From NCBI RefSeq assembly GCF_002251795.1, contig NZ_NOXU01000032.1, positions 62,001-126,000 on the forward strand: a DNA stretch of 64,000 nt. The letters run 5' to 3'. Shown in pieces: positions 35,765 through 38,277 of the stretch. This DNA comes from Niveispirillum lacus. Its GTDB lineage: Bacteria > Pseudomonadota > Alphaproteobacteria > Azospirillales > Azospirillaceae. How positions within the stretch are numbered: position 1 is the stretch's first letter; each line of letters starts with the position of its first letter. The position numbers and the translations under genes are program-made. The notes under the pieces were generated by a model. It was not told where the DNA came from. It saw nothing but the letters and a program-made list of their open reading frames with translations, and did no database searches.

Positions 35765-36976
35765 TCATGATGAGCCCGGCGATCCGTCCTGGATCACCTG
35801 CGGCAACAGGTCAGGGATACGTTCCTTGAAGGCAAAAAAACCTTTGGTCGCCAGCGGCCAGCACAACGCATCATAAGGCCGACGCACCGGCACCAGCCGG
35901 ACCCCTGCCTGCGACAGCACCGGGGTCAGCGCTGTTAACGCCGCACGCACAGGACCCACCGGTGCCTCTGGTGTAACGATCTGGGTCAGTCTGTTCTGTC
36001 GTGCCCATGCCACCACCTCCCCGACGGACAGGGTGGTCCCGGTCAGGCCCTGCGACCGGCCAGCCTCAGTCATTCCGTTGTCCAGCGCCGCCGCCGTCCA
36101 GGCCTGTGCGGCCGCCACACGCCCATCCTCGATCACCAGACCCGCCAGCGCCTGGATATCAGCCGCAACCGCCAGACCGATGCCGGCCACATCATCACCA
36201 TGCAGCAGCAGACCCGTGGGCGCCCGCCGGTCGGGTGCCGGCAGCGGCAGCAGGGCAAGCGGCGGGGGTGGCGGCGGTTCGTCCAGGGCCAGTGCCACGC
36301 CACTCAGCCCTTCTGGGTCAAACCGACCATAGCTATGGTCACGGATATTGTCGCGCCGGGCCAGATAGGTCTTGCCCCGTGTCTGCAAACCGGCCACCCA
36401 GCGCCAGGACAAGGTGTTGCTGGCCGGATCAGCATCCAGCAGATGGCGATAGAAAAAATCTGCCCCCAGTTCCCAGGGCAACCGCAGGGTAAATATCCAG
36501 ATGCTGGCGAACCACATACGGGCGTGATTGTGAAGGTACCCCGTCTCCACCAGTTCGCGCGCCCAGTCATCAAAGCCGTCAATGCCGGATCGGCCCTCGC
36601 AGGCCCGTTCCACCCGCCGCGCCAGCGACCGATCATGCTGCATCGCGGTCATCGCTGCGGACAGTCCGGCCCGGTAGCGATCATGGATAGCGGGCCGCAT
36701 CTCCAGCCAGCCCTTCCAATAGGTGCGCCAGAACACTTCCTGGATGAACTTCTCCGCCCCCGCTGCGCCATGTGTGGCGACGGCGGCACGGATCAGTTCC
36801 GCCTCGGTGAGCAGCCGGTGACGGACATAGGGGGAAAGCTCGGACACAGCCGTGCGTTTGCCGGGACCGGGATCGCTGTTACGGCCGGCGGCATAGGTCC
36901 GGCCCATGCGGGGGGTAAAACGGGTCAGCCGGTCAAGACCGGCGGCACGTGTCGGGGGGAAATGGATCGTCTGCAT
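35765..36976 (-). CDS. Photolyase/cryptochrome-family FAD protein with apparently swapped domain order
   Basis: About 403 residues from the ATG at 36976. The N-terminal 215 residues are a photolyase FAD-binding domain: SELSPYVRHRLLTEAEL, FIQEVFWRTYWKGWLE, GFDDWARELVETGYLHNHARMW and DADPASNTLSWRWVAGLQTRGK correspond to the SxLSPyl, EL-WReFy, tGwmHNxxRM and LDxDxAxNxxxWQW blocks that bind FAD and DNA. In ordinary photolyases this domain comes second. Here the residues after it (about 240-400) form an alpha/beta unit, opening with TGLLLHGDDVAGIGLAVAAD and closing with RLVPVRRPYDALCWPLATKGFFAF, which resembles the N-terminal antenna domain. A proline run separates the two. Light-driven DNA repair or light sensing is inferred; an FAD-binding photolyase relative is certain. 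Confidence 0.85.
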   Translation of the reverse strand: MQTIHFPPTRAAGLDRLTRFTPRMGRTYAAGRNSDPGPGKRTAVSELSPYVRHRLLTEAELIRAAVATHGAAGAEKFIQEVFWRTYWKGWLEMRPAIHDRYRAGLSAAMTAMQHDRSLARRVERACEGRSGIDGFDDWARELVETGYLHNHARMWFASIWIFTLRLPWELGADFFYRHLLDADPASNTLSWRWVAGLQTRGKTYLARRDNIRDHSYGRFDPEGLSGVALALDEPPPPPPLALLPLPAPDRRAPTGLLLHGDDVAGIGLAVAADIQALAGLVIEDGRVAAAQAWTAAALDNGMTEAGRSQGLTGTTLSVGEVVAWARQNRLTQIVTPEAPVGPVRAALTALTPVLSQAGVRLVPVRRPYDALCWPLATKGFFAFKERIPDLLPQVIQDGSPGSS

Positions 36977-37080
36977 GGCAGAGGGAGATAGATCATCCCC
37001 ACCGACCGGAAAGGGGGAGCCCAACAGGCAACGGCCCCGCACGCCGCCATATCGATCAGCCAGGAGGCATGCCGATGCGC

Positions 37081-38277
37081 TTAGATGCCGCTATTGGCAA
37101 CCTCGCCTGTCACCGCGTCCATGCTGGCCATGATCCGGGCATAGGCTTCCCGTTCAACCGCTGAGAGATGGGGATGCCAGATGTCAAAGATCAAGACGAC
37201 CCGCAATTCGTCACTGTCATTCCAGGCTTCATGCTCAATCGTATCATCGAATATCCAGGCCTGACCGACCTTCCATTCCCGGGTCTCCGATCCCACCCGG
37301 AAACCGCATCCCGGCGGCACCACCAGCGGCAAATGCACGACCAGCCGGGTATTGGCGACCCCATGATGCGGGGGGATGCGGGTGCGCGGCTTCAACAGCG
37401 AGAACATCGCCACCGGCGACCGGTTGGGCACGCGCGGCTGCGGCATGTCGGCCAGGACGGACATGGTCACAGGACAACGGTCGGCGTTGGCCGGAACGGG
37501 GATACCCTTCTCCAGCAAATGGATGGCACTCCACCGCGGGGAATTATTCAGGGGTTTCCACTGGTCCAGCGGGGCCCAGTCCGGATACTGGATATAAGGT
37601 ACAGCCGAGGATGGTTCGGGATTGTCCAGCATGCCGGCCAGTTCACGCTGGATATCGCGGGTCGCCCCCTCCAACCGCGCCAGCCAGGGGAATTCCTCCC
37701 GCTCGAAAAACTCGATGGAGGGCAGGCCCGGCAGGTGGAAATGGGTCGGCTGCTGGGTATAGACCTTCCGACGCCCCATCAGATGATCAATCATCCGGTC
37801 GATGCGCCGTGTTTCCGCTGATCCGCGCGGACTGCCCAGTGCTGCCACCGACCCGCGCAGACTGCCTTCCAGTTCCGACATATACTCCGCATGCAGGTGC
37901 TGAGCGCGGGCGATGGCCCGGCGGGTCGGTTCGTCATAATGACCGGTCGGTGAATATTGGGTCAGCGCCACGCCATAGGCCTGGGCTGCCTGCCGCTTGT
38001 GGCCTTGCGTCTCCAGAATATGAGCCCGCATCAGCAGCGCCAGAAAACTGCGCGGATCGGCCCGCAACGCCCCGTCCAGCGCCAGCATCGCTGCCGGCAA
38101 ATCCCCGCTGGCCCGGTGGGCAACGGCTAGGTTCAACCATAAGGAGACATCGGCAGGGAAGCGGCGCAGCGCCGCGTCCAACACCTCAAGTGCATCACGC
38201 AGCCGGCCTGTCCCCATCAGCCGCATGGCCGTCAGGCTCGCTTCCTGTGCTGTCGGCTCCGCAACTGCCACCGCCAT
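37081..38277 (-). CDS. TPR protein with aspartyl/asparaginyl beta-hydroxylase domain
   Basis: A 398-residue protein. Residues about 10-130 are TPR-like helices (MGTGRLRDALEVLDAALRRFPADVSLWLNLAVAH, then GDLPAAMLALDGALRADP). Residues about 200-380 match the aspartyl/asparaginyl beta-hydroxylase domain: PPHHGVANTRLVVHLPL has the first iron His with the HxG arrangement, and FDDTIEHEAWNDSDELRVVLIFDIWHP has the second His and the 2-oxoglutarate Arg. Such enzymes hydroxylate Asp/Asn side chains or modify lipids (LpxO type); the TPR arm suggests a protein target. No signal peptide. It precedes the photolyase-like gene by about 105 bases on the same strand. Confidence 0.88.
   Translation of the reverse strand: MAVAVAEPTAQEASLTAMRLMGTGRLRDALEVLDAALRRFPADVSLWLNLAVAHRASGDLPAAMLALDGALRADPRSFLALLMRAHILETQGHKRQAAQAYGVALTQYSPTGHYDEPTRRAIARAQHLHAEYMSELEGSLRGSVAALGSPRGSAETRRIDRMIDHLMGRRKVYTQQPTHFHLPGLPSIEFFEREEFPWLARLEGATRDIQRELAGMLDNPEPSSAVPYIQYPDWAPLDQWKPLNNSPRWSAIHLLEKGIPVPANADRCPVTMSVLADMPQPRVPNRSPVAMFSLLKPRTRIPPHHGVANTRLVVHLPLVVPPGCGFRVGSETREWKVGQAWIFDDTIEHEAWNDSDELRVVLIFDIWHPHLSAVEREAYARIMASMDAVTGEVANSGI

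Follow-up and report, generated by a model that had tools for sequence, protein, structure and literature searches.

Photolyases with a reversed order of domains have been described, among them Phr7, which in the excerpted text of its description has the FAD domain first and lacks Fe-S cysteines (PMC9426592). The described class closest to the protein reported here is NewPHL, whose members are CPD photolyases acting on single-stranded DNA and have "an inverted domain topology", as an excerpt of one paper puts it with reference to a study of 2020 (PMC13274461). The same excerpt names members from Dinoroseobacter shibae, Methylobacterium mesophilicum, Erythrobacter litoralis and Rhodospirillum centenum, gives the UniProt accessions A8LJA9 and M7YZC8, and uses SPL as an alternative name for the class (PMC13274461). 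Elsewhere, the NewPHL of D. shibae is said in a short extract to have "a mere Trp dyad" (PMC8948257), and NewPHL appears, in the part of a third paper that concerns it, among the classes retaining an asparagine (PMC12083526). The reversed-order class is already known, and the protein described here is not a new kind of photolyase. Rhodospirillum centenum belongs to the same family as our source organism, and Emmerich et al. are said to have reported in 2020 that the C-terminal domain of NewPHL seals the FAD site from solvent.

The gene of interest lies on the minus strand of the window (the whole stretch of 64,000 nucleotides that was analysed). Compared by description, its product shares with NewPHL an FAD domain placed first and another domain placed last, a tryptophan dyad, an asparagine at flavin N5, the absence of a conserved Fe-S set, and a membership that includes Alphaproteobacteria. 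No difference from the class was found by this comparison; residue 98 (36683-36685, minus strand), a tryptophan in 96 of 100 aligned relatives, is a histidine here and a tyrosine in the sister species of the genus. The Phr4/Phr5 pair and Phr6 of marine Synechococcus and Cyanobium likewise have the FAD part first and the alpha/beta part second, but in the excerpted account a photolyase domain is recognised in them and the four cysteines of the Fe-S cluster are present (PMC9426592), whereas the protein of the window lacks a conserved Fe-S set and its C-terminal domain has diverged strongly. Another likeness is to the SPL proteins (named in PMC9178010 and PMC9649867), since FAD-only proteins that we labelled SPL by resemblance form the nearest branch in our tree of FAD domains; these differ in being FAD-only, their alpha/beta part being encoded by the gene that follows. 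With class I CPD photolyases, the protein has in common the FAD domain and the flavin and lesion residues, but in that class the antenna domain comes first, the FAD domain is of full length, and there is a tryptophan triad.

Gene and domain organization

The features of the locus are as follows.

35765..36976, minus strand: putative NewPHL-type photolyase gene; 403 aa from the ATG at 36976, stop codon 35765-35767
35765-37042, minus strand: longer version of the open reading frame; 425 aa from the in-frame GTG at 37042
36302..36964, minus strand: N-terminal FAD (catalytic) domain; residues 5-225, without the last ~60 positions of PF03441
36398..36475, minus strand: segment of residues 168-193, which holds W168, D181, D183, N187, W191 and W193
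35768..36271, minus strand: C-terminal alpha/beta domain; residues 236-403, as modelled alone
35813..35881, minus strand: conserved C-terminal motif RPYDALCWPLATKGFFAFKERIP; residues 366-388

In the numbering of the 403-aa version, alignments with relatives start mostly at residues 2-9, and two start at residue 15. A preliminary description of this DNA, made from the sequence alone, had read the protein as a photolyase-like enzyme with the flavin domain first and an antenna-like alpha/beta domain last. The order of the domains was confirmed: FAD_binding_7 (PF03441) is matched at residues 77-223 (Pfam, E 2.7e-22), and in a high-confidence model the C-terminal domain is built of alternating strands and helices. 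The inversion of the domains, with the flavin domain first and the alpha/beta domain last, is real.

The FAD domain and its conserved residues

The match to FAD_binding_7 covers only positions 1-143 of the 203 positions of the Pfam profile. Over residues 5-205, a profile of the N-terminal half could be aligned with the FAD domains of photolyases that have two domains (E 1e-31, probability 99.9%), so that the N-terminal part of the HMM search of each half, which had been suggested as a check, agreed with the reading of a photolyase FAD domain. The top sequence match in the PDB was the photolyase of E. coli (E 4.1e-14), in which residues 196-396 aligned with residues 2-205 of the present protein, and five NCBIfam photolyase models were matched in their C-terminal FAD-domain parts, with scores far under the cut-offs. 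When the whole protein was compared with Pfam, NCBIfam and PHROGs, all matches fell in the FAD half; they were to photolyase families and to a single phage family whose function is unknown.

Assignment to other described groups was rejected. No N-terminal PF00875 precedes the FAD domain (Pfam), which speaks against class I by architecture; the score against the DASH cryptochrome model TIGR02765 (NCBIfam) was 58.3 bits, with a cut-off of 317.05 bits that was passed in none of the 289 genomes surveyed in the taxonomic class; and PF04244, the family of prokaryotic 6-4 photolyases, was without a match in the protein (Pfam).

Conservation was counted in an alignment of 100 rows, picked as relatives having both parts, and PF03441 was present in all of them. 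Residues Y28, L47, E80, W83, R84, N150, W168, D181, D183, N187 and W191 are invariant (100/100), S45 and S48 are kept in 99 rows, and W193 is kept in 98. Alignment with E. coli photolyase and with the photolyase profile places W191 and W168 at positions one and two of the triad that transfers electrons. By E. coli numbering, we take these two tryptophans to have the corresponding roles and N187 to lie beside the flavin N5, while W83 and W193 are presumably the tryptophans at the lesion-contact positions.

The third tryptophan of the triad of two-domain photolyases falls in the stretch equivalent to residues 99-121, and within these residues no column has tryptophan in more than 11 of the 100 rows. 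The third position is therefore without a conserved tryptophan, and the two invariant ones, W191 and W168, correspond to the dyad of NewPHL; the asparagine of the class, at the N395 or FAD-switch position, corresponds to N187. Residue 122 is a tryptophan in 35 of the 100 rows and a valine here. Since Trp98 (96/100) and Trp122 lie nearby, a further electron donor is possible in relatives. As for cysteines, four of the columns occupied in the protein of the window have Cys in at least 15 rows, with a maximum of 48 of 100. No cysteine column extends to half of the rows, and hence there is no conserved Fe-S set.

Relatives and distribution

A scan of genome contigs yielded at least 586 relatives among at least 592 pattern-matched stretches, and the best 80 were retained. 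These best 80 of at least 586 are 45-56% identical to the protein and come, by title, mainly from Alphaproteobacteria, with some from Gammaproteobacteria and Actinomycetota and one from Eremiobacterota; identity is 47-54% for those among them whose labels name Rhodobacteraceae or a genus of that family. In the survey of the 289 genomes, any match was found in 172, ordinary photolyases included, while a hand count of rows gave the two-domain type in 20 genomes and an FAD-only type in 8. The inversion is not a matter of chance, since nearly all of the pattern-matched stretches encode relatives and the two-domain type recurs in these 20 genomes. Within the family, the two-domain type occurs in 6 of 82 genomes and in 3 of 13 genera, including the genus of the window itself. 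The closest copy found, 77% identical, is in a genome of the same genus (G175), with coordinates that match NZ_CP025613.1 of Niveispirillum cyanobacteriorum, and a second genome of the family (G362) has a copy that is 57% identical.

Annotation of this type of protein was sampled in eight plasmid records with a match: six say "FAD-binding domain-containing protein", one is without a feature at the place, and one is unannotated. In a set of Alphaproteobacteria with genomes of 1.2-1.6 Mb (L097-L102), the FAD half is 47-53% identical and the C-terminal part is 14-19% identical.

Two-gene relatives and the tree of FAD domains

Of the FAD-only proteins in the eight genomes, six have an open frame of 246-309 aa, whereas two form part of longer frames. 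By a scripted rule, an alpha/beta-like open reading frame follows directly downstream on the same strand at six of these eight loci (L143, L144, L147-L150), and at the other two a downstream alpha/beta frame was seen by reading the sequence. A profile of the six alpha/beta partners aligned with the antenna domains of class I photolyases (75%, E 2.5e-5) and, weakly, with the C-terminal domain of the two-domain type (15%, E 0.0019), the latter staying in register as far as the aromatic segment at the end. Pfam detected no family in the one partner that was scanned. When further FAD-only relatives were sought across the phylum (E 1e-45), 1 of 398 genomes gave a match.

The arrangement of an FAD-only gene followed by a small alpha/beta gene, seen in Alphaproteobacteria (L143-L150, L103-L110), resembles the Phr4/Phr5 pair of marine Synechococcus. 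A cysteine-rich, Fe-S-like C-terminus is seen in only some of the FAD-only proteins (L104, L105, L103/L147).

In a midpoint-rooted tree of FAD domains with 52 rows, for which the bootstrap was unsettled and the programme gave a long-branch warning, the two-domain type formed one branch (26 of 26 rows, 100/99) and the FAD-only type a branch of seven rows (99/97), the two being joined at 99/95. Sequences labelled by us as class I (14 sequences) and class II were placed apart from both types. The protein falls outside the class I branch, and its membership of class I was rejected on the FAD domain as well. The expectation that it might mark a distinct branch held for the separation in the tree; the branch is not new, because the class has already been published.

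The C-terminal domain

The whole-protein model has a mean pLDDT of 96.1. When the C-terminal 168 residues were modelled alone, the pLDDT was 92.4 and the secondary structure was nearly as in the whole model. The alpha/beta (antenna) domain of photolyases is built of alternating strands and helices; the predicted structure of the C-terminal domain has strands at residues 254-259, 274-280, 313-316, 332-336 and 360-364, the first two of which follow each other without an intervening helix. Conservation in the C-terminal motif is high, with G379 and F381 in 100 of 100 rows, D369 in 99, W373 in 97, and A376 and F380 in 95 each. A GFFxF-like segment stands at the C-terminal end in every one of the 100 rows, which were chosen for having both parts.

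Comparison of sequences gave no significant match to antenna domains. Residues 224-403 matched no Pfam family up to E 10, and in the aligned relatives PF00875 gave a weak match (0.013) in 1 of 100 rows, while BLH_phosphatase was matched in 7 of 100 (best 0.00035); PF00875 was not matched in L077. By hhalign, the C-terminal domain aligned with class I antenna domains at 5-7%, or 0.1-0.5% under another setting, and with five class II sequences at 0.2%. HMMER comparisons with antenna domains in the two directions gave best E values of 0.12 and 0.29, and a search of the PDB with the profile of the domain returned 17 matches up to E 10, none of them a photolyase.

Comparison of folds gave a different picture. 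The whole model matched photolyases and cryptochromes of the PDB over 203-257 columns (Foldseek), which is approximately the size of the FAD part. When the C-terminal domain was searched alone, no PDB match was found at E 0.001 or below, and the first four matches were class II photolyases (E 1.6e-3 to 2.8e-3, TM 0.53-0.60). Of 1417 fold matches up to E 10, 50 were listed. Chains of class II photolyases account for 28 of the 50 (TM 0.51-0.60), their titles naming mostly Methanosarcina mazei and one plant enzyme, and the part of these targets that is matched is presumably their alpha/beta part. The rest of the 50 are 2 chains of mouse CRY1, 8 of phosphopantetheine adenylyltransferase (0.40-0.50), 11 of DOT1L (0.26-0.30), and 1 from a ribosome with HflXr. 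The proposal that this half is antenna-like, which an unrelated fold would have spoken against, found support in the fold, the best PDB matches being class II photolyases (E 1.6e-3 or above), and not by the HMM search of the C-terminal half. Judging from the model, the domain is probably antenna-like, as had been suggested.

Origin of the reversed order

Two other accounts of the C-terminal half and its position have to be weighed. That it is an unrelated Rossmann-like domain joined to a bare FAD domain would fit the sequence comparisons, never significant for antenna domains, and the presence of phosphopantetheine adenylyltransferase and DOT1L chains among the 50 listed fold matches. We consider this unlikely, as 30 of these 50 are photolyases or cryptochromes, the TM values of the class II chains exceed those of the other chains (0.26-0.50), and the separate alpha/beta partner, which aligns with antenna domains, also aligns weakly and in register with the C-terminal domain. 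The domain instead most likely shares its origin with the alpha/beta domain of photolyases and has since degenerated. The preliminary description went further and saw in the reversed order the pattern of a circular permutation. The order itself fits such an origin, and so would the resemblance of the protein end to the stretch that normally precedes the FAD domain, and an order of strands and helices that, in the model, appears to be that of an antenna domain minus its first helix. A strict permutation of a whole photolyase is nevertheless improbable: the FAD domain halts at profile position 143, which rejects a permutant with both a complete FAD domain and a complete antenna domain; the helix between the first two C-terminal strands is absent; the FAD-only relatives adjoin their alpha/beta frames in the same order; and in the tree it is the FAD-only proteins, and not class I, that form the nearest branch.

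A simpler route is fusion, because the FAD domain ends early and the FAD-only relatives encode their alpha/beta part in the gene that follows, with the order of the two parts unchanged. We infer that a reordering of domains, for which the joining of two neighbouring genes is the simplest path, explains the locus better than circular permutation. More tentatively, the C-terminal domain could be a degenerate photolyase alpha/beta domain gained when an FAD gene and an adjacent alpha/beta gene were fused; reversed-order photolyases would then represent a second, independent joining of the same modules, of which the separate pair would be a living alphaproteobacterial intermediate. This fuller scenario is a possibility that we hold somewhat short of even.

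Genomic context and proposed function

Contig C14 of the same genome carries a canonical-order photolyase, which groups with the class I sequences in the tree (L124), and on contig C24 there is a photolyase of the PF04244 type that has clustered cysteines. In the window, the neighbours that were scanned encode a metallophosphoesterase, an aminotransferase, and a single protein (37081-38277, minus strand) in which an aspartyl/asparaginyl beta-hydroxylase domain comes after TPR repeats; none of these has an evident link to the photolyase gene. Among the 80 related loci, a neighbour cluster occurs near the photolyase gene in 13, with a median of 139 bases between the open frames. The one member of this cluster that was checked (L025:4062-5831) has PF00875 and then PF03441, and is a canonical photolyase. 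This photolyase neighbour is the sole link to repair in the neighbourhoods of the 80 loci, and in L025 the canonical gene and the NewPHL gene possibly form a repair gene pair.

By its fit to the published traits of the class, the gene product is very probably a NewPHL photolyase that would split CPDs under blue or near-UV light, probably in single-stranded DNA. As is supposed for the class, FAD would be photoreduced through the tryptophan dyad W191/W168, and excited FADH- would pass an electron to the dimer, from which the electron would return. The C-terminal domain may pack on the FAD domain in place of the missing last helices and shield the flavin. A role as a cryptochrome-like blue-light sensor instead of a repair enzyme appears highly improbable, even though the flavin domain is present and repair is already covered in this genome by the canonical-order and PF04244-type photolyases. 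The asparagine at N5 is kept in every row, the tryptophans at the presumed lesion-contact positions are retained (W83 in 100/100, W193 in 98/100), Pfam detects no signalling domain, and a canonical photolyase cluster, known from its one checked member, adjoins 13 of the 80 related loci. Moreover, excerpts of papers that cite them state that characterised NewPHLs repair CPDs (PMC13274461, PMC9426592).

Based on these findings, our data place a photolyase of inverted topology in a genome close to Niveispirillum cyanobacteriorum, where it is most likely an ordinary member of NewPHL. They also provide support, at the level of the fold, for kinship between the C-terminal domain of this class and the usual antenna domain. 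The forms in which the FAD part and the alpha/beta part are encoded by two genes bear on how photolyases were assembled.
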